This document shows positions 26,775 to 54,569 of a DNA stretch of 64,000 nucleotides, one piece after another (the first letter of the stretch is position 1; every line of letters starts with the position of its first letter). A model generated the notes under the pieces. That model had not been told where the DNA came from and did no database searches. It worked only from the letters and a program-made list of their open reading frames with translations. The DNA is taken from assembly GCA_015680905.1 (NCBI GenBank), contig CM027381.1, forward strand, positions 64,903,501-64,967,500, read 5' to 3'. Source of the DNA: Coptis chinensis (taxonomy: Eukaryota > Streptophyta > Magnoliopsida > Ranunculales > Ranunculaceae). A program made the position numbers and the translations under genes.

Positions 26775-26940
26775 TTCGAACAAGTAAAGAGAGAGAGAGA
26801 TAAAAATAAGGCGTTTGTGATTTCGAGGCAACTAAGTTGTCCACAGTTGTAACCGTTTGAGTTTTGAATATAGCTTTGTGGTGATATTTTTTATGTTTCT
26901 CGAAACATTCAAATTTTTCGAGATGAAAATTTGAACATTT

Positions 26941-26952
26941 TGAGAGGGGTGA
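26941..26952 (+). promoter_or_regulatory. polypurine tract of retrotransposon 2
   Basis: TGAGAGGGGTGA directly before the 3' LTR start TGTCGTGGG at 26953. Confidence 0.78.
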
Positions 26953-27253
26953 TGTCGTGGGCAAATATCGTCATACCGATATTCCAACCTAAAATATGAC
27001 AGTATATCATGAAATGTTAAATAAGTTTGTGCATAAAGGAGGAAGAAGATGGACACGCGGCAAGAGTTGAAAGAGAGAGGAGTCATTCCAAAATCATTAC
27101 ACAAAACCATTTGTAAAGAATGAGAGAGAGAGAAAGTGAGGAAATTGTAACCCCCATTGTTAGTTGTTACACCTTAATAAAACTGAGTTTCCAGTATAAT
27201 TCATTCTTCATTTTCTCATCTTTAGTTTCATCATTCTTATAAATTGTAAGTGA
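26953..27253 (+). repeat. 3' LTR of retrotransposon 2 (incomplete)
   Basis: It begins TGTCGTGGGCAAATATCG like the 5' LTR, is shorter than it and lacks the CACTACA end. It passes into the AT-rich dispersed repeat at about 27253. Confidence 0.85.
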
Positions 27254-27645
27254 TAATTCAGTTAATATTTCGATATACCAAAAAACCAATATATATCAAA
27301 AATATTAGAGATATCTATTTTTTTATTAATCAGTCAAAATTTTGTTTTGTATGTCGATATATCAAAAATATCATTGATTATATAAAAAATATCATTAATA
27401 TATCAGTTAAAGTCAATAATATTTGGTCAAAATCAACAATATCGATCAAAATCAACAATTTATATTAAATATATCGGATATATCACTCAATATATATCAT
27501 TATATCAGAAATTACGATATATATAAAAAAAAAAAATTCAATATTCGATTGAAATATATCAAATATATCTATATCGGTGTACTAAAAAAACAATATATAT
27601 CAACGATATATCAGATATATCGACGATATTTTGGGCCTTGGTATG
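27254..27645. repeat. AT-rich dispersed repeat, copy 1
   Basis: About 390 bp rich in ATATATC/GATATAT. It starts near AATTCAGTTAATATTTCGAT and ends CGATATTTTGGGCCTT. A second copy with the same start, middle (CAAAATTTTGTTTTGTATG) and end lies at 37288-37675 inside the CACTA element. No inverted ends or coding capacity are seen. The class is unknown. Confidence 0.7.
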
Positions 27646-28292: not shown

Positions 28293-31200
28293 CTAGGGTT
28301 TGAGAGCTAGGGCCAACCCAACCTTAGCGCTCTTCTCAATCGCCCTAGTGTCAACTTCTCCAGAAACGGTAACAAGAGACTTTGGCCGCCATTCATGCTG
28401 TATGATGCCACTCAACTTACCATAGTTGTCAACCCGTGCTTTCACCATGGTCAAGGGGTCCAATGCGTGCTGTGTACCAAATGTGAGGGTGTTCTCATTA
28501 GTTGAGAAACTATGAGCAAGCTCACCACCTACTGCAGTACTGGTCAAGGGACTAAGCACATGATAGTAGGACGCAGTCAGGGTCTCACCCTTGTTATTCC
28601 TGAATAATCAGTAAAAACCATTATATCAGCACACTCCACAAAATAACATTAGCTCGAATGAACTCAAAATTTAAAATCGAATATAGAATCAAAGACACTT
28701 CTTACAGAGTAAGAGCAGCAATTAAGTCGCTGTTGGAAAAAGTCAATCCAGTATTGCACTTTGTGAGGTTTCGAGCGGCAGTATCAAAGGAGATATCAGT
28801 GCCAACTGCAAGAACATTTGTTCCTATAACACCTGAGAAGTTCAGAATGGGATTTGCGGTCAATCCAACGCTTGTGCTTATTCCTGCGTAGTCATGCTGG
28901 TACTGGAGTTCCACCTGTTGAAAACAGCCACCAGAAATTCCATATAGAAAATTCGCAGAGTCAAACAAAATGTATACACAGGATAATCGACAATCAAGAC
29001 TGACAAAATATTATGAGAATAATAGATGTGATAACTAAAGTTCTAAACAATCGTTCAATTATTGCCAATCCAAGGGGAATTATAACTAACGTAACTGTAG
29101 TTTTATTACAGAACGAAAAAGAAAAAGAAATCGCATAAATCTCCATATGCAAAATTACATAAATATGGCATCAAAACTCATATGACTTGGTTTTCTTGGT
29201 GCAAGCCACCAGAGCAATTACTAACCTAACATATTAAAAAGGGTTAGAACAGCCACCCCCCCAGTTTCAAACAGAATTTAGACATTATGCAGGGGTAAGA
29301 CTGGACATTTGATCCTCCCCAACCCAAACCACTCTTCAGTTAGGGCTTGATAAATACTCAAGTTTTTACCATTAGATTAGATGCCAAGAATATGCCTTGT
29401 CCGTCAGATCTTGGAATAAAACACAAATGAAATCCCTACATTCTCCATTTCTCATTCTCAGCCGTCTTAACTCCTCCCTCATATGACTTGGTTTTCTTGG
29501 TGCAAGCCACCAGAGCAATTACTAACCTAACATATTAAAAAGGGTTAGAACAGCCACCCGCCCCCAGTTTCAAACGGAATTTAGACATATTATGCAGGGG
29601 TAAGATTGGACATTTGATCCTCCCCAACCCAAACCACTCTTCAGTTAGGGCTTGATAAATACTCAAGTTTTTACCATTAGATTAGATGCCAAGAATATGC
29701 CTTGTCCGTCAGATCTTGGAATAAAACACAAATGAAATCCCTACATTCTCCATTTCTCATTCTCAGCCGTCTTAACTCCTCCCTCCCCCAACTACTTTCT
29801 CCTCATTTATTCTCACATCTCAATCCAAATCTCTCCCTCTCTAAGAGAACACCCATCCAAGTTCTCACTCACCCACTCACAAAAATAACATCAAGCACAC
29901 ATCAAAGAAATTTGGATTGATTTCTTATTTGTCTTGAAGAAATATGCATTGTTCTTTGGGTTAAGTTGGAATTTGAGTGTTAAAATCTAAGAATAAGTAA
30001 GAAAGAAAGATGAGCAATAAAAATCATCTTTCTCTCGACTTTCTTCTTTGATTTGACGTTTTCTATTTGAAATCAAATGGATTTGAGAAACCAACCGATC
30101 AAAACTGAAATTTGCCGTCTCATCCAGATCGGTTTGCAGTACTTCTCGGTTTGGGTGTGGTTTGCTTAACTGTGAAACACCCCTAAGTATATCATTTACA
30201 ATGTGTCCGTGAAATGCATCAGCGTTGGATACGTGGTTGTATTTAAAATATGGCGTGTCCATGTAAATCACAAAAAATGTAATCTTTACATGTTCCTCCA
30301 TCCAAAGCCAAAAGCATAGAGTACATACAAATTGAAGATAATCAAGAGCAAACTAGCTTAAAACATAAATATGGTGGAAAAACTAGTAAATATGCTGCAA
30401 TATTGTAAGCATATAACTAAATATATATCACATGATATAGGTGCTAAGGCCTCCATCATATCTCCAATAAACATCTAAATCTCGAAATAAATAGCCATTG
30501 GAAAAGAAGTCATCCACATACAGTTGGCAAGGTTTGCTCCGAACATAGTCATGCATATCATCAAGTCAAGAACGAAGTATAAAAATTAAAAGGGTGCAGA
30601 AGATCACTCACTTTGCCGGACTTCTGGTCGGGAGCAACAAAGCTGACAATTGTCTTGAGACCTGGTGCTGCTTCATCAACTGTAATAGTCGTTGTAAGCT
30701 GGAAAAAGTGAATAAAACTATCAACTAAAACTAACCATTGCAAGTCAAACTTAGCCAATACAACATTATAACTGCACCCAAAGACCAAATGCTAACAAAA
30801 AAGGGATAACAAATTATACAACAGAAACAACTTACCCTGGAGTTGGTGTCCACTTTCAAATCAGTAGTGACATTCTTGTTTACCAACTTAGCATTCAGAT
30901 CAGCCAAAAGAAGATCACCTTTTACGGTAGCTGATGTAGTGATAGCCTGCAGAAAAAAAAATACCATACAGGTTACAAAAGAAATTATTCTCAGCAACTG
31001 GTGTAGAGTGATTATTGTGTTTTCAAAAGTCAATTGAAGAGTTTTCACGACTCCTGAATGTATATCAGTTGCTTGCATAATCATTACCAGAAGAACATTA
31101 TTCGAGTAAAATGATATTAGAGACAGAGAGGGAGGAAGTTGTTAAATAGTTAATATACATTGCAAGTCCTCCATAGATCCTAGAAACACAATCATGAAGT

Positions 31201-36088: not shown

Positions 36089-36572
36089 TGTTTCGACCAG
36101 ATATGATCAAAACATCAAGTGTTGATAAAAGAGACGAAGAACGTAGAAAAGTAATTGGAAAAATGATGGTGATCGGGGGAATGATGAGATCAGACCCTTC
36201 GCGGTTGCCTCGCATCCAAATTATCAATGAGATCAAGTCTCAAGAACGTAGTTCTGAATGAAAAATAGTTTTGTATTTATATAGGTAGAGTAGAGAGTCC
36301 TTGTAGCTCAAGTAATCTTGTAACTTAGGCAATTGTGATAGACTATAACTTTCAACTGATAATTATCTCTTTGATAAGAAATGAATCTGGACATAAATCA
36401 ATGTACATTAGTGGCAAGCCATGTGGCTAAGGTTCAGCCTTAGACACATGAGTTAATGGGCCTGTACATTGATCTATGGTATTGCAAATTGGGCTTTAAC
36501 CCTGTCGATTAAATGAATAAAAATAGAGACCCTTAGTAATGGACGTTTGCCACGTAGGTGGGGGTCGAAACA
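36089..36572 (-). repeat. 3' LTR of retrotransposon 3
   Basis: 484 bp, from TGTTTCGACCAGATATGATC to GGTGGGGGTCGAAACA on the plus strand. It matches 54087-54569. Confidence 0.95.
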
Positions 36573-36585
36573 CCGCCCCCTCTTT
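36573..36585 (-). promoter_or_regulatory. polypurine tract of retrotransposon 3
   Basis: On the minus strand AAGAGGGGGCGG directly precedes the 3' LTR. Confidence 0.75.
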
Positions 36586-36780
36586 GTCATGCGAACAAAG
36601 TTCACATGGCAAAGAAGAGAAGACAAATGAGCGGAATGTATAACGAAGTGTTGTGCGAAAGGAAATGATAGGAAAACTGATTGTCAAAAAATCGTGAATT
36701 ATCGGGAACGAAAAAATGTCAAACTAACATATACGGAACGTAATTAAATAAAAGATGGACCCGAAAAATGCACGAACTCA

Positions 36781-37160
36781 CACTACAACAAATATGACAT
36801 ATGACATCACTAATTTTAGATCACTTTCAAAGTGATGTCATATGAAAACTATGACATCACTTTTCTCAATATGTGATGTAATAATTATCACAATTTTTTT
36901 TTAACATCACTTATTTGAAAGGCTGATTTAGTAGAGTTGTACAACATCATTTTAATAAGTGATGTCGTAATAGTGATATAGTAACACTTTTTACGCCACC
37001 GTGTCACTTATAAAGTGATGTAATATCTATGTATTCAACATCACTTTAAAAGTGTTGTCACTCACCGTGTCACTTATAAAGTGATGTAATATCTATGTAT
37101 TCAACACCACTTTAAAGAGTGATTTTGCCAAGTTTTGAAATCACTTGTGATGTGACTTCC
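36781..37160. repeat. left terminal and subterminal repeats of the CACTA element
   Basis: CACTACAACA at the tip, then at least eight copies of the AAGTGATGT / ACATCACTT motif. One 55-bp segment (CGTGTCACTTATAAAGTGAT onward) occurs twice in tandem at about 37003 and 37067. Confidence 0.88.
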
Positions 37161-37287
37161 GAAGTGTTATTAATGATATACCTATTAATTATTAAGTTAA
37201 TTAGTTAGAAAAACAATCGAAAAAAAAAAATAGGTTAAATAGAAATGAAATAGGCGCGTGATTGGTTTGCTAGACCAAGGTCCAAAT

Positions 37288-37675
37288 TATTGAATTCGGT
37301 GAATATTTCGATGTACCCAAAAACTGATATATATATATCAAATATATCGAAAATATCGGAGATATATACTTTTTGTTGACCACCAAAATTTTGTTTTGTA
37401 TGTTGATATATCAAAAAAATATCGCCGATTATATCGAAATACTTGTCAATATATCGGTCAAAGTCAACAATATAAGTCAAAGTCAATACTTTATATCAGA
37501 TATATCGTATATATCGGTCGATATATATCATTATATCGGAAATTGCAATATATATTGGGAAAAAAATAATTCAATATTTAGTTGAGATATATCGAATATT
37601 TTTATATCGGTGTACCAAAAAAACAAGATATATCGGAGATATCTCCGATATATGGGTGATATTTTGGGCCTTCTT
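37288..37675. repeat. AT-rich dispersed repeat, copy 2
   Basis: Second copy of the repeat at 27254-27645, starting AATTCGGTGAATATTTCGAT and ending GTGATATTTTGGGCCTT. It lies just inside the left subterminal region of the CACTA element. Confidence 0.7.
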
Positions 37676-38980
37676 AGACATGCCGAGAAATAAAGAAATA
37701 AAAGACCGCGGTTTTTTCTACTCAATATATTTTGGTTTCCCTTTAGAACTGGTTTGCTCGACTAGCATTAAACCAAAATTAGAAATAAAAAACCGCTAAT
37801 TTGATACTGGAAATTTTGGTTTCGCGAGAACTTGGTATAAGTTATACTTAGGGCAAACTGTTATGGGAAAAGCTAGAAAGTCGGCTGAAAATTATTGTGA
37901 AGCGGGTTTTGTTTCTTCTTCCTTTCTTCCTCCCTCTTGATTTTCTTCTCATATATCGGTTTGAAACTAACTAATTTATACCTTGTTTTCACGATTTCTT
38001 AAAAAAAATCTTCTTTTTCGTTACACGTGAGCCGGGCGAAGAACGCAAACATGTTCCTCTTTTTTTTCTCCCTCTCTCCATACCGATTTCGATGTTTTTA
38101 TTCAATATATTTGTGTTTGTCCGGTGGGTGCTAAATTTTTACCGCTTTTCAATTGGGTGTTTTTCTACTTGTGAATCGGCATGGCCTCTTTAAGATTTCT
38201 CGATATGTTTATTGAATTATTATTGTGATTTGTTTGTGGTTCATTAAGTCTTTAAGATTAATTGTTTGGGATTGTTTGGCTGCAATCTTTTGGATTGCAC
38301 TTGTTTATGGATAAGTTTAAGGATGGTTTGTAGAGAAAAGTAGTTTTTTGTATGTGGAATTGGGCATGATGATACTTTGCAATGGTGATACTTGCCGCCT
38401 AGATGGTAGTCATGGAGTCCGGTTTTACAAGTTGCAAGATAACTCATGGTTTGGGTTTGAGGTCTATCGACATTGTTTAGTAGTCTGCATGGTGTGTTTC
38501 TGGCTGGTCATCTTTCCGACCTGCCTCTCTGTATGAAAAGGGAAATTACGCTGAGTGCCAAGGAAACGATAAGCCTTGGGCTAAATTCGTGACCTTGGGA
38601 GCTAATTAAAACCATAGTTTGTGACTGAAGTGAGCTATCATGTAAAAGAACACAGAAGTTGCCATAACATCCAACTAAATATTATTCTTCATAAATTAGC
38701 ATCAAACTGCCCGACCTTTATTAAATAGAGGTACCTTGTCCTTTAAAATGATTTTTTTTCTTGCTTTTTGATAATCTAGCGTTACTGCTGAGGTTCTGTA
38801 ACACATACTACTGCCTTCTTAAAAAGGTCACTATCTTGGCTTACAAGTACCCAGTTTCGAGCTTAATCTGTTTAAAAGACCATACGATAGAGAATATTTT
38901 TGATGCTTACAAGTATAGGTTTTGTTGATGAATGGAGAATCTTTGAGTTGGATCGATGGCATGAAGATGCGCTTGACTAT
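37676..38980. other. unassigned internal CACTA sequence
   Basis: It contains splice-like junctions and short open stretches (for example 38348-38536) but no recognised protein. It may be part of a further captured fragment. No transposase signal is seen. Confidence 0.4.
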
Positions 38981-38984
38981 TGTT

Positions 38985-39145
38985 GTTGTTGAGGAATAAG
39001 AGTAGTATGATATAGTGCAGGTTTTAGTCCCACATTGAGTAGGTAATAATTGTAGTATGTCTACTCTCATATATTAGCAGAGTGAGTCCCATGTAATTAT
39101 TTACCCTATGTAGATTTTAACTTGGTATCGGTGTCCTAGGGTTAC
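38985..39145 (+). mobile_element. possible small copia/TRIM LTR and primer site
   Basis: TGTTGTTGTTGAGGAATAAG, GTCCCACATTGAG and the end TTTAACTTGGTATCGG resemble a short copia or TRIM LTR followed by a tRNA-Met primer site (TGGTATC). There is no matching second LTR and no coding part. Low confidence. Confidence 0.3.
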
Positions 39146-39889
39146 AGTTGGGGATTCATGTTTTCGGTCATTGGCGTAGACAAATCCGCAAACCGATTGG
39201 TGATCACAATTTTCCTCGGTCACTATTAGGGTTATATTTCTCGATGGTTTTGGTGCCGTGGTTTTGTCTTTTGTTTGCTTCTTGTGGTCTAAAGTCCGCA
39301 CACCTTGCCACCTTGGCAACATGTTTTGATTGATGTTGGTTTACAATTATCATGGGATTTTGTCGGCATGATCCGTTGTTCTCGAATCCGCTTTCCCCTG
39401 TTAATCTTCTACTAATTTCTTTGGTGATACGTTGATGTCATCTTGGTTCACCATGGTCGGAAGCCTTGGTAATGACCATCTTAATGTGCTTAGAGAAAAA
39501 AGAAAAAGAAAATATGGAATTGTTGCTACTTGTGTGTTTTTGTGGTCGTAGGTTGTGATAGAATACTCTCTTATGAACACTTTTTTTTTTGCTGAAATTT
39601 CTAAGGTTCGAGCTTGTTTTAGTGAGCCCTCTTTTATTTTGATTGATATGGTAAGAGCTATTTTAACGGACATTACTTTAAAAATTATCCGTCCATGTAT
39701 CGTCCGTGTCAGATACGTATCTACGTGTCCATGTCGAGCACGGCACGGACACACTGCATGTGATATATCTCAAATGTGAATGGAGACTCATTATACAAGT
39801 TGCAAATGTGTACGGTGCTGTTTTATACAAGTTGCTGTAATCTTTACCACAATGTCAATGCACTATTTTTGAAATTGTGAATATACTTT

Positions 39890-42128
39890 CTCCGTCTGCT
39901 CGTGTGAAAGGACTTTTCTTTGTGTTGACAAAGCTAGATTTGATGGACAAGGGAACAAATCTTTGTTGATGTAAGTATTAAGATCCTTTTCATTGTGAAC
40001 GCCCATTAACCGCACAAAGTAGAACTCTTTTGGTCATATTTTGAATTTTTCACTAAAATTCTTTCTCCCAAAGACTTCATATTTGTTGAAGTTATTGGTG
40101 AAGTTTCTCCCAACACTTCAGATTTGTTGAAGTTCGGTGAAGAATAATTTCTTTATCTCTTGGATTTTAATATATCTTTGATTAAAGATACAACACTTGT
40201 TTGTATTCATATTTGTTTTAGCTTATTTTGCTCCTCTCCTATTACCTTGCTTGGGGTGCTTCTACTTTGTTGGATTGACTCGAAACATATGTATTTGTTT
40301 GTTTTATTGGTGAAACCAAAAAGGTTCTTGAAGGAAGAGCATATAGGTCGCAACATCCTTGGGTAGGAGTTGTGAATCGCTCTCGGGCCGATATCAATAG
40401 AAATGTGGACATGATTGTCGCGCACGGCGTAGGGAGCTTAATACTTTGCAAGTAGTCCCGATAACAAACACTTAGTAAGTAAAATGGGTCCGAATATCTC
40501 GCAAAAACTTCACAAAAGGTAAGATACTAATAAGTTTTGTTTCCCTTTATCGATTATATGGTTCAGCATTAAAAGGATATGATACACTTGGATGGTATCA
40601 TGAATATGGAAACTCATTTTTGTACTTTTATGTTTTGCAAAGACTTGGAGGCGTTATTAGGCACGATACCAAATATCACATCCTTGATTAACAAAACCAT
40701 TGATGAACTTGAATCTGAGATGGACCACCTTGGCGTGCCTATTGCTCTTGACGTAGGGGTATGAACAATGTTATCTCATGTTTGTCTTGTAGTGACTTTT
40801 GTGTTCACCGATCTAGTTATCCAGATAATAGAGTTTTGAGTTCTTAGATCTAGCTATATCTATGAGAGTTCTATGAGGCTTACAACAAGTTCTATGAGGC
40901 TTTCTCCAAGAACCTGAAACTTGGCATCCATGAGGACTCCTGCACGTAAACCAAGCTTCTTTGAATTGCTCGTATCATCACTCGACCAAGAGTGGTGATG
41001 AGTTGACTAGTTTGAAGGATTATATGACTAGGATGAAGGAAGGCCGTAATGACATCTATTACATCACCGGGTGAAAGCAAGAAGGTCGTGGAGAACTCTC
41101 CTTTCCTTAAGAAGCTCAAGAAGAAGGGTATTGAGGTCTTGTACATGGTTGATGCTATTGATGAGCATGTTGTGGGCGGCTTAAAAGGAATTTGAAGGCA
41201 AAAAGCTTGTCTCTGCCACAAAGGAAGGTCTGAAGCTAGATGAGAGTGAGGACGAAAAAAAGAAGAAAGAGGAACTAAAGGAAAAGTTTGAGGGTCTCGC
41301 AAGGTGATCAAGGATGTTCTAGGTGACAAGGTCGAGAAGGTGATTGTCTCGACGTGTTTGTGGATTCTCCCCGCTGTTTGGTGATCGGTGAGTATGGGTC
41401 GACAGACTAACATGGAGAGGATCATGAAGGCTCGTGCTCTCGAGGGATTCAAGCATGGCTGGCTACATGTCTAGCAAGAAGACCATGGAGATCAACCCCC
41501 TGAAATTCTATCATGGAAGAGCCGAGGAAGAGGGTCGATCTTGATAAGAATGACAAGTCGGCTTAAAGATTTGGTTACATTCTTTGTTTGAAACCCGCCT
41601 TCTTCTCACTTCGGGTTCGGTCTTGATGAGCCCAATACTTTCGCAACAGATTCACAGGGATGCTAAAGTTGGAGTCCGAGCATTGACGAGGACGATCGAT
41701 CTTGAAGTGACACGACATGCCACCATTGGAGGGATGTTGATGCCGAGGGAAGCAAGATGGAGGAAGTTGATTAAGTCTTCACCTATCTCATTTTAGTACT
41801 TGACATTTAGTATATTTGGGGTATTTGGTAGTGTTTTTATTTATGTTGAGTGTTGAAACTTGAAACAATAGTCTCAATGGTAGTGATTTTGGATGGTCTG
41901 TATGTTGTTTCATCATGTCGGTTGTAGGTTTTGGATGGTTATTTTGCTACTCTGACAATTTTATATGCTAGTATACAGTGTTTGTCTAAAATCTATCTTA
42001 TATCTATGAGAGTTCAAGTTCATAACCAAATTTGCTACAACTTTACCTTGCAGGCTCATTTATATACTATCTTGGAACTTTGTCGGGCATTTGACCAAAT
42101 TTTCAAGGAACATCTAGATGGAGGGTAA
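39890..42128 (+). pseudogene. captured dynamin-related protein 1 fragment (GTPase to middle domain)
   Basis: Exons of a plant dynamin-related protein 1 (DRP1-type GTPase of membrane fission and cell-plate formation), with introns kept. Exon pieces: about 39890-39970 (FFVLTKLDLMDKGTN, containing the TKLD guanine-recognition motif), 40323-40516 ([31 protein letters not shown]), about 40640-40759 (SLINKTIDELESEMDHLG, PIALDVG) and 42051-42128 (HLYTILELCRAFDQIFKEHL). GTAAG-type donors and AG acceptors are intact at several borders. The genomic, intron-containing form shows DNA-level capture by the CACTA element rather than retroposition. In-frame stops (TAG and TAA near 40426-40440) and the missing N- and C-terminal parts make it a pseudogene. 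The third intron holds an HSP90 insertion (40872-41998). Confidence 0.88.
40872..41998 (+). pseudogene. HSP90 C-terminal fragment inserted in the dynamin intron
   Basis: A cytosolic HSP90 3' portion starting within [17 protein letters not shown]. It goes on through SLKDYVTRMKEG-like, [53 protein letters not shown] and RIHRDAK, then ends MEEVD and TAA at 41774. MEEVD is the TPR-cochaperone docking tail of cytosolic HSP90. About 220 bp of apparent 3' untranslated region follow. It is flanked by perfect 17-bp direct repeats TATATCTATGAGAGTTC (40855-40871 and 41999-42015), so it was inserted as a unit into the dynamin intron. This looks like a 5'-truncated retrocopy, although no poly(A) remains. 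Several frameshifts and stops (for example near 40945, 40980 and 41180) show it is dead. Confidence 0.88.
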
Positions 42129-42259
42129 GCCCTTCTCAAAAGCTTTGATCTTCCCTCTATTTAACCTAGCCCCATGTCCCCACTGCTGATTTTCGTAGAC
42201 CAAATAAGAGTTTTTAATTTTTTTTCATTAATCAAACTTTTCTTTATGATGCAAAGTAG

Positions 42260-43993
42260 AAGGAAGACGAGTTCATATTTCCAAATATATTTGAGAGACC
42301 AATTCCATCTATCTTAAGGGACTACAGTGCACCTATTTGTCTTGATTCTGATCTCACTCAAAGTGACCTGCTTTTTCTACTTGCGCATGATTCAGATGAA
42401 TTTAATCGGTATGTCTTGTCTATTACCCTTTTATTGATATTGTCAGGAAATACATAATATGTTAAAACAAAGCACATTGTGATGGGTATATATGTGTTAT
42501 ATAGTTGGGAGGCGGACAAGTCTTGGCCGAAAGCTTATGCTTAACTTAGTCACTTTTCAAAGAAAACAAATCACTGGTTTTGAACCCAGAATTTTTACAT
42601 GGACTCAAAAGTCTTCTATCTGACTCCAGCTTGGATAAAGTCAGAGCTGTAACGATTACTTGAGATTTAATAGAGTTTTTGTCAAACCCATATATATTTA
42701 CTAGCATTGTGGAACATCTCCCTCGGGGACTTGGGCCTTCCTCTTAGAATTCTAACAGTTGTATAGTTGCATACCAATGACTGAGGCACCGTATATCTGT
42801 TTCTCTGGGTAGTTTATTCTTCATAAACTGAATTGTTTCAAGTTGATTCTTGCCAAACAGATGAATGAACTAAATCCACTAAAAATTTCTACATCATGAA
42901 ACTTTTTGTGTATAAAACAGATGATATTGGCTCCCCATTCTACATCGTCCCGAGAGTTGTTAGTCATGGTGTTTTATGCTTTAGGAGATGGAAAACAGCC
43001 CTTTTCCGACGGCATGGGTGCTATCTCTCCAATGCCTTCTTGGATTGGCTTTTGTGTCCGTGTTCCGCTTTGGCGCCGCGAGGACCGGGTATGATACATT
43101 TTACTTGATGGGGGCATTGAGAGCCTATTGTGTGAAGTTGTGTTAGTATATTTAGAGTCCTAACGGTCACTTTCACCGTTAAGGCACTTTCTACATCTTT
43201 GGTTACTTCTTTGTCGCCTTTGGCTCTTCACTCTCCTCTCAAGAAAACTTAACCAAAATTTGGACCTGCGGGATTGTTCGACGCGACAAAGATCGGTTCA
43301 CCCTCTCTTGCATAGAAGGTTACCGCTAAAATAGGTAGATCCATATTGATTTCTCATCAAAACAAAGTACATCTTTGTCGGGCCTTTACAAGCCGGAATA
43401 AGTTACAATGCAGGATCATTTACTCATTAGTTCTAACTACTACTTGATAATTTTTAGAATTCATCGCAAAGGTGCTTACTCTTCCTGGAGATGGGGAGAT
43501 CATGGATATGATGGAGGTTGCAAATCCCGATGTTGTTCATGCTGTCAGCTCTTTCATCAGGAAACTTCTTGCTTCGGAAATGAAAGCTGAATTTCTTAGC
43601 ACAGTATGACATCTTCAAATATAAATATATGTTAAATCAAAATAGTATTTGCTTTTATTGTTCTTATTCTCTATTCATTTGGTCTTCCTCGCTTCATTTA
43701 ACGCATCACATGTTCTAGGTTGAAAATAATAGGAGTATTGAGCCTTACATCTTTGACCATGCTAATATCTCCAGACGTGCTTTGAAGAATATTTCTCTTG
43801 GTGACTCTCCAAGGGTTTTGTTTGTGTAAGATGGATGCAGGAAAACTTGTTATGCTATCAAGTACATTATCCGACTGATCTGGTTTTTGTTCCTTGTATA
43901 GCCTATCTTGCTTCTCATGAAGATCCGACATTGTCAAACTATTCTTGCATGAGTACAAGTCTGATTGATTTTCTAGTACAATGTTTCGATCTT
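42260..43993 (+). pseudogene. captured M1 aminopeptidase (puromycin-sensitive type) fragment
   Basis: The C-terminal half of a plant puromycin-sensitive aminopeptidase-like zinc M1 peptidase, with introns kept. Exons: 42260-42408 ([32 protein letters not shown]), 42505-42639 (QVLARKLMLNLV, then NKSLVLNPEFLHGLKSLLSD after a frameshift), 43458-43603 ([40 protein letters not shown]), 43719-43800 (VENNRSIEPYIFDHANISRR, ALKNISL) and 43902-43993 (AYLASHEDPTLSNYS). Borders are GT-AG and several exons are open. The HEXXH catalytic domain, which lies upstream in the family, is absent. About 230 bp between exons 2 and 3 hold an unrelated-looking open stretch (42915-43085). Confidence 0.87.
42906..43094 (+). 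other. unidentified open stretch between aminopeptidase exons
   Basis: A 62-codon frame containing ELLVMVFYALGDGKQPFSDG, MGAISPMPSWIGFCVRVPLW and RREDRV, with protein-like composition. It is not part of the aminopeptidase family as far as I can tell and sits within an intron of the captured fragment. It may be a fragment of a further gene. Not recognised. Confidence 0.35.
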
Positions 43994-44339
43994 GTAAAAA
44001 AAACAGAGTGGTTGGTTAGGCTGTGATAGGTTCTTAGATTAAATTGATTGCATCAAGTCAGGTGGATAGGTTCTTGGTTGGGTGATTGTGTTCTCTTTGG
44101 CTCGCCTCGCATCATGCAGATTAGATTTTGTTGGTTTATGTTGGCTCGTTACAATTTTTGTATTTAGTGTAATATTTGTAATTGGAGATGATATTTGTGT
44201 GATGAATGTGATTTTAAGATACGTTTAATCTTTATTTGATGATAAATGACTAGGAAAATGGTATTATATTGGGATGATATTGGCAATTTTATTTTATTTT
44301 ATTTTTATTATTTTATTATTTTATTTTTTTAATTATTTT

Positions 44340-44756
44340 GATAAATGGGACATCACTTTTAAAGTGATGTATAGAGTTATTTCACATCACTTTACAAGTA
44401 ATTTAGAATCTGAATAAGACGTCACTTCCTAAGTGATGTTAATCGGCCTTATTGATTTCACTTAAAAAGTGATGTTAAACGTTATAACATCACTTGTGGA
44501 CATCGATTAAAAAGTGATGTAACGTTATAACATCACTTGTGGACGTCGATTAAAAAGTGATGCAAAGTTATAACATCACTTGTGGACATCAATTAAAAAG
44601 TGATGTGAAGTAACATCACTTATGGACATCGTTTAAAAAGTGATGTGGAAACCCTGACTTTTCACGTCGCCACCAGTTACATCACTTGCAAAAGTGACGT
44701 CGTATATTTTTGACATCACTTATGGAGTGATTTTAAATGTCTTTTCTGTTGTAGTG
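44340..44756. repeat. right subterminal repeats of the CACTA element
   Basis: At least six near-tandem units of about 43 bp with AAAAAGTGATGT, GTTATAACATCACTTGTGGA and CATCGATT, ending TCTGTTGTAGTG at the tip. Confidence 0.9.
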
Positions 44757-45946
44757 GCATCATGTAACAATAGGAAAGTTGATTACGACGACGCGTGCCA
44801 GTGGAATAGGGATACTAGGAATAGACCGTTTGAAATTAAACGTAGGGGTAGTATAGTAATAATAGTAATAAAATGAAGTTAAATACTAATTGGACTCAAA
44901 TGTTTCGGATGAGATAAGAATTGAGAGTAGAGATGAAATTGGAGTTGGAGAAGAATCCCACCAGCACTAGAAAACCCGCTCGTAAACCTATATAAGTGCT
45001 GGGGCCGCACATCCCAATCCATAAAAACACTTTACGCTCATCCAACAAAACAGACGTAAGCAGAATTTTTTTTGACATCGCACAAAGCTCGTCCTCTTCC
45101 GTAGTACTGCCGCTCTAGAATGCTGTGTTCCGTCTCAATCAGGTACGTTCTCTCACCATCATCTCTTCTCATATATCTCGCTTTGACACTGTAGGCTCTT
45201 GATGACTCACACTTGGGGCTCTAGAATGTCCTGCCCTTGAAAGTGGAGAAACCCTAGCTTGACCTTCAATCACCATAGCAATCCGTTCCCTGGCTACGTT
45301 GTCTGCATGATCAACAGTAGAGGGTGCAGCAAGCGTACTCCCCAACATCTCACTCATCAAGCCTACGGGAGTAGGAGATATCACCAAACACCCCTTGGCC
45401 CTTGAAGATTCAACCCGCCTAGGTGGGGAGCTTCGGGTGGTATGAGGGAGATTTCTCTCGACTTCGAGAAAACCCGGGGGGGAAAAATGCATGGCGGTGC
45501 TAATTTTCGTGGGTCATTTCCATCAGCAAAAGAAAGCATGCGAAAAAGAAATCTCGCCGTCTTTGCCCATAGAGAAAACGACCTTTACCTTGGCTTGTAA
45601 GGTCAACATGGGTGGCGACAAAACATATTAACTTTGGTTTGTTTGTAGACCCTCCAAGATCGGGCCGGAGAAGATGGTGAGGTGGCCATACCGATGGCGC
45701 CAATAAACAGAAACATGATACAACCAAACAAGATATGGTGCAAATACCAGGAAAAGGGGCACCGTGATTTGTTTTGCCTTTAAAAAAAAAATTCATCGGA
45801 GTTAATAAATCCGGTTTTGAGCAATCCGATGAGTTTTTTTTATTTTTTTTTTTTATTTTATTTTATTTTTTTTTTTTTTTTTTTTTGCAGGTAGAAACTA
45901 ACCGCATTATACAAGTGAAAAAAATACTTTTAAAGAAAAAACTTCG
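44757..45946 (+). other. 3' region of element 3 with antisense promoter-like start
   Basis: Element 3 resumes at 44757. On the plus strand, antisense to gag-pol, CTATATAAGTG (44989-44996) looks like a TATA box. It is followed by a leader with AATCAGGTACG at about 45136-45146 (possible splice donor), a long T-rich stretch and TTTTTTGCAG (ending about 45890; possible acceptor), just before the antisense frames at 45947. The use of this promoter is inferred. Confidence 0.4.
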
Positions 45947-46820
45947 ATGACGATCGCAGACTTCGTGAGGTTGAAAGAAGGTGACAGATACAGCGACTAC
46001 CTGAAACCGCGTCGATGGTCGCTTAAGAAAATACAAAAAATACTAGTACTCGAGAAATTTGAGATAGATGAAGTGTACGAATTTGAAATGAAAGTCAAAG
46101 AAGATGAAGTAGTAATGGCTTATACACAATTAAATTGCAGGAGTGCAATTTTGTTGAGTAAAGAAATTGCGCAATTATTGGAGTGGTGGCAAATTGTACC
46201 GAGACAATTGCCAATATCGTTCTGGTTAATCTTTACGAGAGCGCACCATTTACAAAATGAATTTAACAGAAGGTTTGGGGCTCAAGATATCTTCGTGTTG
46301 ATACGGCTGAAAGCCATACTGACGAAAGGATACATAAAATTTGAAGTTGAATTCAAGGATTCAAACAGAACTTTTAAAGGGTTCCCAAAAGTATACACCG
46401 GATAGGATAGATTTCTGTACCGCTTGCGAGGGAAGTGGAATCCAACAGAGATTTAGAAGACGAAAACAAAAACTTAACCGAAACGGATTTTCGGTTGTAG
46501 TGATTATAGCGGCGAGATCGTACGAAGACTTTGGGAAAACCTGTGAGATAATGGAATAACACAAACACTTAAAAGCAGATGTGATAGAATTAAAGTCACT
46601 CATAGCGACCAAAGATCAGGAACTTAAACGTGCGCAAAAAGAGGCAGAGAAAAATAACAAGCGAATGACAGATTTAAACGAGCAGCTCGGCCAATATCAC
46701 GTGCAAATGGCACATTGTGAATCATCCGTAAGACAATTAACAGAGACTTTAATAGAAACGGGAGATGAACTAGAACGTGAGAAGATGAATTACAAAGATT
46801 TGTATGACTTGTATATGTGA
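45947..46820 (+). pseudogene. antisense additional reading frames of retrotransposon 3 (fossil)
   Basis: Plus-strand open segments opposite to gag-pol. The first (45947-46405) starts MTIADFVRLKEGDRYSDYLK and contains EWWQIVPRQLPISFWLIF. The last (46581-46820) is a strong coiled coil (ELKSLIATKDQELKRAQKEA, RQLTETLIETGDELEREKMN). The arrangement of a globular part followed by a coiled coil resembles the antisense units of elements 1 and 2, but the sequence is different. It is broken in a couple of places. No known function. Confidence 0.55.
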
Positions 46821-47049
46821 AAAGTTTGTAAGGAACCATTGGATTTGCCCAAACCAATGATCATGTGATTGTGCGTTTGTAATACCATAGAGCTAAAAAT
46901 TCTTTTTTAATAAAATAAAGTATGTGTTGGCAATTGAATATCATTGTGATGTCAGATAACATACCTGTGGAAAATTGACAATATTGTTGAATTATATAGA
47001 TGACTCGAAATAGAATGAAACGCTAATGAATACTAACTTTAAGCTTGCA

Positions 47050-47695
47050 AAATTAGATTGAGCTTAAAAAAATGCTCCGAAATCCGAACAAACCCTGTAA
47101 ACGGGTAACTTCATCGATGTTGACATAGTGCGCGAGTAACCGACTAAGCGAAAAAAATCGCTCAATTTAGATTGACGAAATGAAATGTGGTAAGTTCGTC
47201 AGATTTTGTCGTAGCGATAATACGACTAAGCGAGCATAACAACATTCAACTTAGACTGTCGAAATTAAACGTGGTAATTTCGCCAGAGTTTGTTGTAGTG
47301 ATAGTAATGCGACTAAGCGGCGTAAAAGCGTTCAACTTAGATTGACGAAATTAAACGTGGTAATTTCGCCAGTTTTGTTAGTTTTGATAGTAATGTGATA
47401 GTAACGACTAAATTTGTTGCGAAAAAAGCCGCTCAACTTAGATCGACGAAAAATTAAACGCGGTAACTTCGCCATATTTTGTTGTAGCGATAGTAATATC
47501 GACTAATTACGAGCTAAAAACGTTCAACTTAGATTGGCTAAATTAAACATGGTAATTTCGCCCGATTTTGTTGTAATTTGGTCAGCGATAGTAACGACTA
47601 AGCGAAAGTAAAAGCGCTCAACTTAGATTGATCGAAATTAAACGTGGTAATTTCGCCCGTTTGATTTTGTTTGTAGTGATTATAAGGTTCGCTTT
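47050..47695. repeat. tandem array of element 3 (about 90-bp units)
   Basis: About seven diverged units of roughly 90 bp, each with CAACTTAGATTGACGAAATT, AAACGTGGTAATTTCGCC, TTTTGTTGTAGCGATAGTAA and CGACTAAGCG. It lies between the antisense frames and integrase. The sequence is unrelated to arrays A and B. Confidence 0.85.
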
Positions 47696-48122
47696 GGAGA
47701 ACCAAAATCATACAATTGAACCGAAATGAAAGACCCCGCTTCTTTATTGATTACCGAAGTCTTAAAAAATGCAAAGATAACAACGAAAAATACATGCTTG
47801 AACTGGAAACAAACTAAATATTGTATTATTTTATTTCTCCAGGATAATGGAAAAACACAACTAAAATCTACTTATAGAACTTGCGCAGATGAAACACATT
47901 CCACGGCTTATCGAGAACATTCCCATCTAAATCTTGGAGAAAATAAGATCCTTTGGTGGCAGGGAGATCTATGATGTATGGACCTGTCCAGTTTTCTCTA
48001 AATTTACCGGAATCTATCAACCTCGTCTTTCAACAGAGTACCTAGTCATCTTTTTCAAACACTTTAAGTCGAACTTTCTTATCATATTTTCGTTTCATAT
48101 CAGCTTGATAACGAATTAACTA

Positions 48123-49121
48123 TTAAAGACCAACATCTCTTGTCTCATCAATCAAGGCTTTGGCTTGAGCAAGTGCTTGATCATTCGACTCCAATTCCAC
48201 GTTAGAAGTTCGTGTGGTTGGTGTCATCACCTCTGTAGGCAAGACCGCCTGCATCGTAAGCAAGATTAAACGGAGAAAATCCAAATGAATGCTTAGGTGT
48301 GGTTCGATAAGCCCACATAACCGCGGGAAGTTCCTTAACCCAATTTCCTTTGGCCTATTGAAGTCGCCGCTGAAGCATTGCAAGAATGGATTTGTTAGTA
48401 GCTTCAGCCTTGTCCATTAGCTTGAGGATGGTATGGTGCGAAAATTGTGATTAATCTTCAAGTCGAACAAAATTGTCGAATTTCTTCAAAGATCAAATTG
48501 TTTGCCATTGTCGGAAGTCAATGATGTTGGAATACCGAAATGACAAACAATGTTTCGCCATAAGAATTTTTAACATTTGAAGCATGGATCCGGGCTAAGG
48601 GCATAGCTTCACCTACTTGGTAAAATAATCGGTTCGACGAGTAAAGAAACAAACACCGCCAGAGCTTTCGAAGAGGACCGACGATGTCAAGACCCCACTT
48701 TGCAAACGCGACCAAGGGCTCAAGATTGGATGAAGTTCCGTTCTTTGGAAGATTTCCTATATTAGCATATTTCCAAAGGAACACACTTCTCGGATAAACG
48801 CTTAGCATCCTTTTGCATGTACGGCCACCAAGATCCTTGTGTCATTGCTCTATGAGCTTTAGACTTAAGCCCGTGAGTGGTTCCCACATAGGCCTGAATG
48901 AATTTCCGCCAGGACGAGCAAACCTTCAACTCTGTTGAGACAACGAAGCATAGGGTTAAGACTTGTGCCTTTGCGATAAAGTTGCAACAGACCGTTCGAA
49001 GTCGATATGAGACAATATTTCCAAGCATCGCGTTTGACACGATCACCCACTTTATGATCGGGAGGCAAGATGTGATCATGTAAATATATGATATAAGGAA
49101 GACGCCAATCATCTTCGTCAC
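48123..49121 (-). pseudogene. integrase region of element 3 (fossil)
   Basis: Minus-strand segments: the zinc-binding part (YVGTTHGLKSKAHRAM, SWWPYMQKDAKRLSEKC), the core start KWGLDIVGPLRK, and downstream segments to about 48123. It has many breaks and follows the second RNase H as in elements 1 and 2. Confidence 0.78.
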
Positions 49122-49329
49122 AAGGTGTAAGCGGAAAACTTAGCTCTATATCAGGAACCTTTGGAGCATTGTCAACTTCATGATCGTCGTCGGTATGGAT
49201 CGAGACAATATCATTGACAGGATCATTGTGGTAATCTGATAGCATAAGTTGTGGATCAAGCGTTTTCTCTGCAATGATAGCTTGATTATCAAGATCACGC
49301 TTTGGCGGCTTCCGAAATCGACAGAGAGA

Positions 49330-50007
49330 TATCAAATTGGCATGACGTGATTCCTCAGAAAATGTCTGAATGAAAAAACAACTCTGAGTGATGTACATAT
49401 CGCACATATCCTCAATGGACAGATCGATACTTGGTTCCTTTTGAAATTCAATGGTAATCTGGTGAGGCTTATCTGACTTAACTGCCAAGGATAAATATGC
49501 GAGAGAATCCACATGTCGCACGTCATGACGCGGACGCTGTACAATACTGATAGAATCAAAATTTCGAGCAATCCGATGAATTAAGTCCACATAAGCCGCC
49601 ATGCTATCGTCACGAAATGCATAATGATCCACCAAACCGGCTAGCTTAATTAACTTAGAATCTGTGAATAATTGTAGCTTAGTCGCCCCCAAGTGAAGAG
49701 CAGTGCGCAAACCGCAAATGAGAGCTTCATACTCGGCCTCATTATTTGAAGCGTCAAAACCCAAACGCACTAACTTCTCAATTTTGTCTCCATTCGGTTG
49801 CAAGATTACACACCCAATACCGGAGCCATACTTATTATGTGAACTATCAGTGTAAACAATCCAACAATCAGTAGATACATCTGATAAGTTTGGCAAATCA
49901 TCGTCCCTAAGAGGTAATGGCGTGTTGTCGACGACATTCTCTTCGTCTAGTAATGCGTCAGACATAAGAATATCCTTAATTGGAAAATCAGCCATTAGCA
50001 AAGCCAA
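49330..50007 (-). pseudogene. second RNase H of element 3 (fossil)
   Basis: An uninterrupted minus-strand segment with DCWIVYTDSSHNKYGSGIGC, DASNNEAEYEALICGLRTAL, LQLFTDSKL and RPRHDVRHVDSLAYLSL. These are archaeal-like RNase H blocks and place the element in the Tat lineage. Confidence 0.85.
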
Positions 50008-50056
50008 AGCTTGTCATTTCTCAGCTGTGCGAGTTTCAAACACAATGCTATAAGCG

Positions 50057-51331
50057 CTAAGGTAACTTTCCCATTCTGTGAGGCTTAATTTGATTCCCCG
50101 AAAGCATTGCGAAAAAGCTTTCACAGTGGATATTCGGTATAAACTTTGACGACTCGTCCGTGGAAATAAGGCTTAAGACGTCGGGCAGCATGAACCAAGG
50201 CCAATGCAATTTTCTCCACTCGAGAATATCTTGTTTCAGCAGTTGTAAGAGTCTTGCTAACAAAGAATATAGGACGACCATCGCCACCGTTGACAAATAA
50301 GACGGCACTTACGGCATGATCAGTGGCGGCTAAATACAGACCTATAGGCTGCCCCATTACTGGACTGGCAAGAACTGGAGGTTGGACTAAGTATGCTTTC
50401 AATTGACGAAATGCAAGTTCACAGTCCTCCGTCCAAATTGATGCGTCTTTCAATGTTTGGAAAAGAACGCATCGATCGACGTATACCGAGATAAAGAGAT
50501 TTAGGGCAGCCAAGCGTCTTGTAAGTCGTTGAATTTCTTTCTTTGACGTCGGAGAAAACATTTCAAGGATAGCTCGAATCTGATCCGGATTTGCTTCAAT
50601 TCCGCGTCTAGTCATCATGTATCTTAAGAATTTACCAGATGATAAACCAAAAGAACACTTAGCCGGATTCAAACGCATGTTGACATTGGAGAGTCTGTCG
50701 AAAATAGCTTGCAAATCAGTAAGATGATTAGGTGCTTCTGTAGATTTGACAACCATGTCGTCGATGTATGCTTCGAATCTTTTTCAAGTAGATCGTAAAA
50801 AAATAGTGTTGACTAGCTTTTGATATGGCTGGCTCCGCTTTTCAGACCGAAAGGCATTACCGGTAACGAGAAATGCCTTGGTCTATAATGAATGCCGTGA
50901 ACTCTTGGTCCTCAATGAATAACGGAATCGATGATAACCGGGAATAAGCATCCAAAAAGACAAACGGCAAAACCGGATGTTGCATCGACCATTTCAGATA
51001 TACGAGGCAATGGATACGGATGAACCGGACAAGCCTTATTGAGATTTGTGAAATCGATACAAACACGTAATTTGCCGTTCTTTTTAGGCACTACGACAAC
51101 ATTTGACATCCATGTTGGATAAGTCACAGGCCTTATAAAGTTAACAGACAAGAGACGGTCGATTTCGTCTTTCACTTTCATCTTTCTATCGGGGGCCATC
51201 CTTCGGGGATTTTGTCGAACTGGCTTTGCATTGGGATCAATGTCGAGTTTATGACAAGCCACCGAAGGATCTATACCAGGCATTTGCTCTATTTGCCAAA
51301 CAAAAACATGATTATTCTTCCGCAATAACAA
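50057..51331 (-). pseudogene. reverse transcriptase and RNase H region of element 3 (fossil)
   Basis: Minus-strand blocks MPGIDPSVACHKL, VPKKNGKLRVCIDFTNLNKA, YPLPRISEMVDATSGF, then MVVKSTEAPNHLTDLQ, KCSFGLSSGKFLRY and EANPDQIRAILEM. RNase H (IWTEDCELAFRQLKAYLVQP, PIFFVSKTLTTAETRYSRVE, ARRLKPYFHGR) follows. The region is broken in a few places. Confidence 0.86.
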
Positions 51332-51604
51332 AATAAGCTCTTGTCTCTCCGCTTCTGGAAGTTCGGCTGAAATAAAAGTAGTCTCTTCAGGGAATTGGCC
51401 AATTTGAACTTCTAAAAGTGGATCGACTGTCGGGGGTCTTTCAACATTTCTATTGGCAGAGTAAACTGAAGGTCCCGGATGCTGTAATTGCTATTTGACG
51501 GCGTTGGAACTTAGAGTAGTTCGTCCAACAACTTCAGACTTCTTATAATCATCGAGAACATTGTCGTGGCAAATTAGAGATGCCAGTTGATCGTTACAAG
51601 ACCT

Positions 51605-51913
51605 TTACGGACTTTTATTGAATGGGAACTTGATGGCTTGATGATATGTTGAGACGACAGCTTCCATATAATGAATCCAATCGCGACCAAAGATGACATT
51701 GTAAGGGGATTTACAGTCCATCAATAGGAAATCAATATTGACTTCCTTCTGTATAAGAGTGACCGGGAGAGACACCTTTCTAACGGAATGAATAGCGGTA
51801 CCATCAAAACCAACGATAGGCGCATTTTCAGGGGTGACCAAGTTATCAATAAAATGAATACTGCAATAACACCCAGAAAACATGACGCTAGCTGAACTAC
51901 CAGTGTCGATCAT
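51605..51913 (-). pseudogene. aspartic protease region of element 3 (fossil)
   Basis: A minus-strand open segment with MIDTGSSASVMF (protease active-site pattern DTGSS) and PYNVIFGRDWIHYMEAV. It lies between gag and reverse transcriptase. Confidence 0.8.
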
Positions 51914-52431
51914 TATACGTTATGCGCTTTATACAACCGATATATCGCATGCAGTATCACGACAACATCATAATGAGGAACATGCACCCATTAGATCTTG
52001 GTCGCTGAAACATAATGGTTCATCTTCGGTGAGTCTCCGTCGCGAAAACCTTCCACGAAATTGATCCCGTTAACTTCGTAAGAATTAGACAGATATTTGA
52101 CTTTAGAACGGCGAGCATTTTTCGGTGAGTATTGACAATGAATCAATGATGGCATGTCCAACCTTAATGACATTGTGATCGATAGTTAAAGCTTGAGTTG
52201 TTACTTTCTTCGCACATATTGATCAAGTTTCCCATTCTGCACAAGCTTTTCAATTCTTCCCCGCAAAGACCGACAATTCTCCGTCTCATGACCATAATCT
52301 TTATGAAATTTGCACCATAACGATTTATCACGAGTTGTTTTAGTGTCGTCGCCAAGGGAAAACGGGCGGAGTGAGCGGACTCTTATCCTTGATTTTGTCG
52401 TAAAACTCGCGATATTTGGTATTAAGCGGAG

Positions 52432-54060
52432 TTAATTCAAAATCGAAAAAGGCTTTCCCGTCCCCGCCCGCCGCGTGGAGTCTTCTTTCTTATCACGGAG
52501 GCTTCGACCGGGTTGTTGTTGATCAAAAGTCGAATTCTTCGCGCTTATTTCATCATCATTGAAATCCTTTCCTTTATTATCTTTGTCACGAAAGTTCGAA
52601 AGCGGCCGTGTCGCCTTCAACATTGATAAATTGTTGAACTTCGGCCGGTATAACGACGCCGGGAAGATGGAATATCCCGAACAAGAGAGTTGTATAACCC
52701 ATCTTTATCAAACAAGATAGCTTCTTTAAAAGCGTAAACCACCATTAGATTGGATTGTTCAGAAATCTCAGCTGCAGCTTGGCGGAAACGAGCGATAAAA
52801 TTACGGAGAGTTTCCTCACATTGTTGCTTGATGTTGAAAAGAACTCGGACTCCATTTGGACGTTTTAGATTATGATGAAAACGTCTTGAAAACTTTTCGG
52901 TTAAGTCCTTGAACCGACGAATAGAGTGCGGAAGTAATTCACTAAACCATACCAACGCTTCCCCTTTTAATGTAGAAGGGAAAAGTTTGCATTTTAAAGC
53001 ATCATCACCTCTTGATAAAACTAGTTTGTTTGTGAAATTAATCACATGAAGCATAGGGCAACCCTCGACATCATCATATTGATCAAACACTAGTTGTTTG
53101 AAGTCTTTGTTATGAGTAGCCCTTTAGACGGCGAGAGAAAATTTGTCCAAAATACCATCTTCAACTGCCAGATTTTCTAGTGTCGATTCAAAAGGATCCC
53201 TGTCCAGAAGAGCTTTTTTAATCATTTCTCTGACACGTTGAGGAGTCATCAGATCCGTATCTGTTGGATTGCAATCATAGTCACGATTATGCCTATGGGA
53301 GCGAATAGAACGAGAAGAAAACAACGAAGATTCATCGTTTCCGTGTCGAGATGATTGTGGATGGTACTTTGGGCTTTTAGTACGATAATGTTCGGAATGA
53401 TAAGAACCGCGTTGCTGAAGTGTTTCACCATACTGATGGTTCTGATCATGAGTGCGATCATTATTTTGTTTGCCACTCGAGTTCCTCGGGACTTGCCGAT
53501 AATTTGTAGGACCGTGGGGTGTAGTCGGACGATTATTAGCAGTACCTTGCCTACCGAGAACGTGACCAAGTGGGTGGAGATTTCTCGGCGGAGGTCGGGG
53601 AATTCGTCGCCCATTACTCTTAACTCGTTGATAGCTATTGCGAATATCGCGAATCTCATCCTCACCACTTAAACGATCCCACACACTTTTATGTCGCGGC
53701 GCGGTGTGACGTTAGTGGTGTGATGATACAACATCATCTGCTAGTGGAGCGAGTCCTTTAAGATGACGCTTGTAGTAATTTTTCTATTTGCGGACAGTTT
53801 TTAACTTTTGAAGAAGTGCTTCTCGAGACATATGACTTACATTAACTGCATCAGATACTGGAGAATCGTCAGAGGCAATAACCTCACGCTGAATAATTTG
53901 GCGCGTTGGTGGAACGACAAGATTAGAAGGTATTATCTTTGTCGGTATGCCAAGTTGTCCTTGACCATCATGTTCGTGATGATCGTCGGTAATCACATCG
54001 GGACCTTGAGCTCTTCGAGTATGCGTCATAACTTTCGCAGAACGTGATCGAGGGTGTAGT
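52432..54060 (-). pseudogene. gag region of element 3 (fossil)
   Basis: Minus-strand segments include a charged N-terminal part rich in His/Arg/Ser (53124-53684) and a gag core (MLHVINFTNKLVLSRGDDAL, EALVWFSELLPHSIRRFKDL, FNIKQQCEETLRNFIARF). A later part reads KFHKDYGHETENCRSLRGKI-like on the minus strand at about 52310-52250. It is broken in several places. Confidence 0.78.
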
Positions 54061-54070
54061 ATAAGGACCG

Positions 54071-54086
54071 TAGACAGTGCCAATTA
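54071..54086 (-). promoter_or_regulatory. primer binding site of retrotransposon 3 (diverged)
   Basis: On the minus strand ATTGGCACTGTCTACGG follows the 5' LTR. It resembles the TTGGCGCCGTCTG site of elements 1 and 2 with changes. Confidence 0.6.
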
Positions 54087-54569
54087 TGTTTCGACCAGAT
54101 ATGATCAAAACATCAAGTGTTGATAAAAGAGACGAAGAACGTAGAAAAGTAATTGGAAAAATGATGGTGATCGGGGGAATGATGAGACTGTACCTTGCGG
54201 TTGCCTACGTACCCAAATTATCAATGGGATTAAGTCTCAAGAACGTAGTTTTGAATGAAAAATAGTTTGGTATTTATATAGGTAGAGTAGAGAGTCCTTG
54301 TAGCTAAAGTAATCTTGTAACTTAATCAATTGTGATAGACTATAACTTTCAACTGATAATTATCTCTTTGATAAGAAATGAATCTGGACATAAATCAATG
54401 TACATTAGTGGCAAGCCATGTGGCTAAGGTTCAGCCTTAGAAACATGAGTTAATGGGCCTGTATATTGATCCATGGTATTGCAAATTGGGCTTTATCCCT
54501 GTCGATTAAATGAATAAAAATAGAGACCCCTAGTAATGGACGTTTGCCACGTAGGTGGGGATCGAAACA
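54087..54569 (-). repeat. 5' LTR of retrotransposon 3
   Basis: 483 bp matching 36089-36572, starting TGTTTCGACC and ending GGGGATCGAAACA on the plus strand. Target duplication ACAAT follows at 54570. Confidence 0.95.

Follow-up and report, generated by a model that had tools for sequence, protein, structure and literature searches.

Tgm-Express1, a CACTA element in the wp allele of soybean, carries five gene fragments with their exons and introns and gives rise to chimeric RNAs (Zabala and Vodkin, PMC1947982). One capture route proposed in the literature is the faulty excision of elements that lie close together (PMC13317346), and the target duplication of CACTA elements is given as 5 nt in one source (PMC8903248) and as 3 nt in another (PMC8978399). 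Here, we describe an element that resembles Tgm-Express1 and is a further case of this known, gene-capturing kind. It lies in a 64-kb stretch of Coptis chinensis contig CM027381.1 (the window; all coordinates are positions within it), where it occupies 36781-44756, a size of 8.0 kb. We consider it highly probable that the element is an old, non-autonomous, Pack-CACTA-like transposon that carries broken pieces of a dynamin, an HSP90 and an aminopeptidase gene, was moved by a transposase acting in trans and landed in a long terminal repeat (LTR) retrotransposon.

The ends of the element and the repeats next to them comprise the following.

36781-36811, plus strand: left terminal inverted repeat, beginning with CACTACAACA.
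36821-37160, no strand: left subterminal repeat region, ACATCACTT / AAGTGATGT in 7 exact copies, 66-nt tandem unit.
44350-44721, no strand: right subterminal repeat region, 14 exact copies of ACATCACTT, 43-nt tandem unit.
44726-44756, minus strand: right terminal inverted repeat.

The terminal inverted repeats begin with CACTA at exactly 36781 and 44756, with CACTACAACA opening the left end and TGTTGTAGTG closing the right one, and their first bases agree at 10 of 10 positions. Over 31 nt the inverted match amounts to 25 nt, and the maximum among 200,000 random end pairs, spaced 4-9 kb apart in the window, was 24. The subterminal repeats are confined to the same two ends: all 21 exact ACATCACTT sites of the window fall there (7 at 36830-37087 and 14 at 44350-44721), closely spaced and in both orientations, as expected for the CACTA superfamily, and 100 shuffled sequences held a mean of 0.99 sites and 4 at most. 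A first-pass annotation of this DNA had proposed both the CACTA ends and the subterminal repeats, and our data confirm them.

No transposase family appeared in six-frame Pfam scans of the element (X at stops, E-values up to 0.05), which a heavily decayed transposase could escape. The scans returned HSP90, Dynamin_M, DUF3458 and DUF3458_C on the plus strand, nothing else there, and no family on the minus strand. Pfam searches with 56 of the 123 stop-to-stop segments of at least 35 amino acids in the element gave the same picture, the other matches having E-values of 0.035-0.18, and the 69 segments of at least 100 amino acids in the window matched 13 Pfam families (E-values up to 0.001), none of them a DNA-transposon transposase. 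Rfam at gathering thresholds yielded no matches and a tRNA scan no genes. The lack of a transposase, likewise claimed before and upheld within the limits of the six-frame scans, fits the expectation for a non-autonomous derivative, and an element with host gene fragments between its ends, here from three genes, and without a transposase corresponds to a Pack-CACTA element. We hypothesize that the element is moved, or was formerly moved, by a CACTA transposase that acts in trans and recognizes the CACTA ends and the ACATCACTT repeats.

The element is nested in another transposon, a feature absent from the first-pass annotation.

36089-54569, minus strand: LTR retrotransposon hosting the CACTA element, with LTRs at 36089-36572 and 54087-54569 and the duplication ACAAT.
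48868-50013, minus strand: RNase H domain of the host retrotransposon.
52620-53123, minus strand: gag domain of the host retrotransposon.

The paired LTRs of this host have TG...CA ends, are flanked by the intact 5-nt duplication ACAAT and differ by a Kimura two-parameter distance (K2P) of 0.043 over 482 sites. The purine-rich tract AAAGAGGGGGCGG (one C) adjoins 36573, and the gag and RNase H domains share one orientation, all of which marks it as an LTR retrotransposon; after subtraction of the CACTA element it measures 10.5 kb. Because the CACTA element lies inside the retrotransposon, it landed after it. At substitution rates of 0.7-1.3e-8 per site per year, the host LTRs would be roughly 1.6-3 million years old. 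The retrotransposon also carries an approximately 85-nt tandem array at 47104-47680; a CACTA-like right end at 47291-47300 is part of this array and was rejected.

Two of the three gene pieces, the dynamin (DRP1) and the M1 aminopeptidase, retain an exon-intron structure.

39893-39970, plus strand: dynamin exon E1, end of the GTPase domain, LTKLDLMDKGTN; donor gtaagt.
40324-40518, plus strand: dynamin exon E2, with 3 frameshift events.
40643-40758, plus strand: dynamin exon E3, LEALLGTIPNITSLINKTIDELESEMDHLGVPIALDVG; donor gtatga.
42054-42124, plus strand: dynamin exon E4, acceptor ttgcag, donor gtaagc; carries Dynamin_M on from E3.
42125-42256, plus strand: fused intron of 132 nt, made of a dynamin donor half and an aminopeptidase acceptor half; contains the capture junction.
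42260-42408, plus strand: M1 aminopeptidase exon X1, ending HDSDEFNR; acceptor at 42256 or 42259, uncertain.
42505-42639, plus strand: M1 aminopeptidase exon X2, broken by frameshifts; GT at 42640 in a phase unfit for X3.
43458-43603, plus strand: M1 aminopeptidase exon X3.
43719-43800, plus strand: M1 aminopeptidase exon X4, VENNRSIEPYIFDHANISRRALKNISL.
43902-43961, plus strand: start of M1 aminopeptidase exon X5, AYLASHEDPTLS; 3' limit uncertain.

For each of the three genes we joined translations over exons and frames into a composite. The dynamin exons span 39893-42124 on the plus strand with their introns retained, and their composite matches Arabidopsis DRP1A (AtDRP1A, 3t34) with an E-value of 7.5e-28, a match that covers E1-E3 and stops at query residue 115 of 140; in dynamin-1 (3zvr) it extends through E4. 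The Pfam family Dynamin_M runs unbroken over E2-E4 (E-value 1.4e-12; 4e-6 for E3 and E4 alone) and is matched in a single frame at 2.5e-5. E2 contains in-frame stops, and the 5' limit of E1 is uncertain, the acceptor AG being missing at 39893. The aminopeptidase composite matches aminopeptidase N (5dll) with an E-value of 8e-25, and single frames match DUF3458_C (1.8e-8) and DUF3458 (5.9e-6). Among the modelled exons, a donor GT follows 7 of the 8 from E1 to X4, the exception being X2, where GT occurs only in a phase unfit for X3, and AG precedes all 8 from E2 to X5. Because the introns are retained, we conclude that the dynamin and the aminopeptidase were taken up as DNA. The first-pass annotation had read these exons, their plus strand, their introns and the DNA-level capture in the same way; the composite matches bear out the exons, and the largely intact splice dinucleotides give the capture good support. 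We propose that the CACTA element would have picked up genomic DRP1 and M1 aminopeptidase DNA with the introns included. Within the aminopeptidase intron lies a further stretch at 42900-43446, whose open part (42900-43091) matched neither PDB entries (E-values up to 10) nor Pfam families (E-values up to 1).

The dynamin piece is interrupted by a third gene.

40855-40871, plus strand: left copy of a 17-nt direct repeat, TATATCTATGAGAGTTC.
40875-41774, plus strand: HSP90 piece, approximately the last 300 codons, cytosolic-type, ending MEEVD-stop; intronless, with many frameshifts.
41775-41998, plus strand: presumed HSP90 3' untranslated region, placed by its position; ends without an A-run.
41999-42015, plus strand: right copy of the 17-nt direct repeat, TATATCTATGAGAGTTC, exact.

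The 3' half of an HSP90 gene sits between dynamin exons E3 and E4. Single frames match HSP90 with E-values of 3.6e-11 and 1.1e-7, and the composite matches HSP90-alpha (3q6m) with 1.1e-95, up to the last residue. The earlier view that two unrelated genes had been captured was thus right for the dynamin and the aminopeptidase but incomplete, and the view that the dynamin is followed directly by the aminopeptidase is correct for the last dynamin exon, from which the 132-nt fused intron leads to X1, but not for the dynamin piece as a whole, which HSP90 splits. The HSP90 piece is a nested insertion in the dynamin intron, because exact 17-nt repeats flank it and its removal leaves an intron of 150 nt, an ordinary size. 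Among 1,000 random segment pairs inside 37701-44000, the only shared 17-mer was this same repeat pair, and the next longest was 14.

How did part of an HSP90 gene come to lie in a dynamin intron? We give an even chance to a LINE-type (long interspersed nuclear element) retrocopy, in which a 5'-truncated mRNA would have been reverse-transcribed into the intron, creating the 17-nt duplication, and both would then have become cargo of the CACTA element. The insert begins within the coding sequence and passes the stop into probable 3' untranslated sequence, and the exact repeat around it has a size within the range of about 7-20 nt that is typical of target duplications of LINE-type retrocopies; the ordinary intron that remains on its removal points the same way. 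A poly(A) tract, which a retrocopy should have at its 3' end, is missing: the 40 nt that precede the right repeat contain no A-run. That approximately 900 nt of HSP90 are intronless says little, because in Arabidopsis, poplar and rice the cytosolic HSP90 genes hold only two or three introns (PMC3750472).

Somewhat less probable, in our estimate, is an origin as filler DNA. In that case, the 3' end of a genomic HSP90 would have been copied in when a double-strand break arose in the dynamin intron, or in the course of the CACTA capture, and the repeat would stem from repair synthesis. Such an origin agrees with the missing A-run, with a short extra repeat at the HSP90 5' junction, where TTCTATGAGGCT occurs twice, and with the entry of the other two genes at the DNA level, but an exact 17-nt target duplication is more usual with target-primed insertion. 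On balance, the truncated 5' end and the duplication speak for retroposition, so that HSP90 may have come in as an RNA-derived copy, and the missing A-run leaves room for repair filler. In our proposed course of events, the 5'-truncated HSP90 3' end would have inserted in the dynamin intron either before or after the dynamin was captured.

The decay of the cargo bears on when the element reached its present site. Aligned to a human HSP90 chain, the HSP90 piece has 13 frameshift events over 799 nt, whereas the host LTR pair has 2 indel runs over 485 columns (conditional binomial test, P = 0.0012). In Poisson form, the 13 HSP90 events give P = 2.3e-8 at the point rate of the LTRs and 0.008 at their upper rate. 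The 195 nt of dynamin E2 contain 3 frameshift events, for which the corresponding values are 0.008 and 0.18, and aminopeptidase X1 and X3 have none; E1, E4, X2, X4 and X5 were left out of this count. HSP90 thus probably decayed before the CACTA element reached its present site, a conclusion of moderate strength from which it follows that the element would have moved with its HSP90 cargo. The landing in the LTR retrotransposon would then be a later step, made with the HSP90 cargo already decayed.

The aminopeptidase may have joined after the other pieces, because X1 and X3 are free of frameshifts; with X2 broken and the counts small, we consider this order without claiming it. A more specific history, to which we give a little less than an even chance, is an assembly in two steps and by two routes, in which HSP90 was retroposed into the dynamin intron, the CACTA element took up the combined pieces as DNA, together with a younger and less decayed aminopeptidase segment, and all moved jointly into the retrotransposon. 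If true, a single CACTA element would hold gene copies of both RNA and DNA origin, one lying within the other and gathered stepwise.

Could the element encode a chimera by read-through and splicing of the dynamin and the aminopeptidase? Both lie on the same strand, the fused 132-nt intron between them has a GT donor and an AG acceptor, the aminopeptidase is partly open when spliced (96 amino acids), and exons of soybean Tgm-Express1 are spliced into chimeric RNAs (PMC1947982). Judged from the sequence, a joint transcript may arise. For a joint protein there is no support, because the junction is out of frame: E4 ends in phase 2, and both acceptors tried (42256 and 42259) put the aminopeptidase out of frame. 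Moreover, dynamin E2 has its three frameshift events and in-frame stops, and the longest open run never joins both genes in four nine-exon spliced models. It measures 96 amino acids (X3-X5) with the GT donor of X2 and 126 amino acids (X2-X5) with a non-GT X2 donor one base later, and both runs lie wholly in the aminopeptidase part. With this junction and these open runs we rejected a coding chimera, which we regard as very unlikely. At the protein level, the captured pieces most likely have no function, and they would at most give non-coding transcripts or ones that produce small RNAs.

Several points weigh against our preferred reading of the locus as an old, non-autonomous, Pack-CACTA-like transposon with three broken gene pieces. 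A perfect 3-nt target site duplication was not found, TCA on the left and GCA on the right agreeing at 2 of 3 bases, and a 5-nt duplication is absent, the flanks ACTCA and GCATC agreeing at 1 of 5. One later substitution could explain the mismatch between TCA and GCA; nevertheless, the imperfect duplication weakens the claim of a single clean insertion. We still place the element with the CACTA transposons because its ends and subterminal repeats fit. The single-frame scores for Dynamin_M and DUF3458 are under Pfam's curated cut-offs, and the exon limits of the captured pieces are approximate. The decay argument depends on a count of only 2 indel runs between the LTRs and on a human HSP90 chain as the reference, and 2 of the 13 HSP90 frameshift events adjoin insertions in the alignment and are possibly artefactual; at the upper 95% LTR indel rate, P is 0.008 with 13 HSP90 events and rises to 0.15 with only 9 real ones. 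In addition, the aminopeptidase is far less decayed than the other cargo, with X1 and X3 free of frameshifts and X3, X4 and X5 splicing to the 96-amino-acid open run; therefore, some of the cargo may be more recent. Finally, the element is known from this single locus. Exact-pattern searches for further copies gave no matches in viral_contigs (20 nt) or genome_contigs (34 nt), as expected for a plant sequence, and a literature search for the end sequence CACTACAACAAA found no related element. That the CACTA ends flank a decayed gene cluster by chance, as the imperfect 3-nt duplication and the single known copy might suggest, is extremely unlikely, since the end match (25 of 31 nt against a null maximum of 24) and the confinement of ACATCACTT exceed chance and the whole unit lies within an LTR retrotransposon whose own 5-nt duplication is intact.

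Other features were noted in the element and elsewhere in the window.

37293-37672, no strand: AT-rich stretch in the CACTA element, of a different repeat family, 75% identical to 27255-27639.

The partner repeat at 27255-27639 directly adjoins a retrotransposon end. Also inside the CACTA element, at 38985-39150, a short LTR-like stretch is followed by a TGGTATC word that resembles a primer site (by eye), possibly the remnant of a small retroelement. A second CACTACAACAAA end, right-facing and with a different sequence after it, lies at 57371, and no exact partner TGTTGTAGTG for it was found between 57371 and 64000. Two related LTR retrotransposons lie in opposite orientation at 235-12974 (K2P between its LTRs, 0.022) and at approximately 14309-27254, with matching tandem arrays of 65 nt (4047-5144 and 22879-23524) and 84/123 nt (6163-6803 and 21413-21876). 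On the minus strand at 28296-29010, two exon-like stretches match eukaryotic porin (Porin_3, E-values 6.5e-30 and 2.3e-17); they are probably a host gene or a fragment of one, which we take to be VDAC, and a 305-nt tandem duplication at 29177-29785 adjoins them. Pieces of a plant mobile domain (PMD) lie on the minus strand at 60270-61395 (E-values 8.8e-11 and 8.2e-7). The coding stretch at approximately 58150-59210 is presumably trihelix/Harbinger-like, as judged by eye; three scanned segments of it had no Pfam match.

The locus is a clear three-gene example of gene-fragment capture by a CACTA element, and in the openly licensed literature we found no report that joins a CACTA transposon with dynamin, HSP90 and aminopeptidase. 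Its internal time marks, namely, a nested insert flanked by direct repeats, a datable host retrotransposon and an unequally decayed cargo, allow the order of capture, decay and transposition to be argued at one locus. It also calls for caution, as annotation could mistake loci of this kind for chimeric genes despite their broken frames.

Compared with described elements, the locus shares with the Chenopodium CACTA elements (PMC8978399) captured host gene pieces and subterminal repeats, but the Chenopodium elements considered carry transposase domains and none was detected here. With the Pack-CACTA or Pack-TYPE elements (PMC8903248) it has in common a non-autonomous CACTA structure and coding DNA from several loci; unlike the rule given there, a 5-nt target duplication fails at this site, and the 3-nt rule holds imperfectly. 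The likeness to Tgm-Express1 comprises membership of the CACTA superfamily, several unrelated host gene fragments with exons, introns and GT-AG sites kept, and a similar size (5.7 kb, compared with 8.0 kb for our element). Tgm-Express1 lies in the intron of a host gene and its exons appear in many chimeric RNAs, whereas our element lies in a retrotransposon. Furthermore, unlike in Tgm-Express1, much of the cargo is frame-broken, and one captured gene is nested in the intron of another, which is the unusual feature of the element described here.

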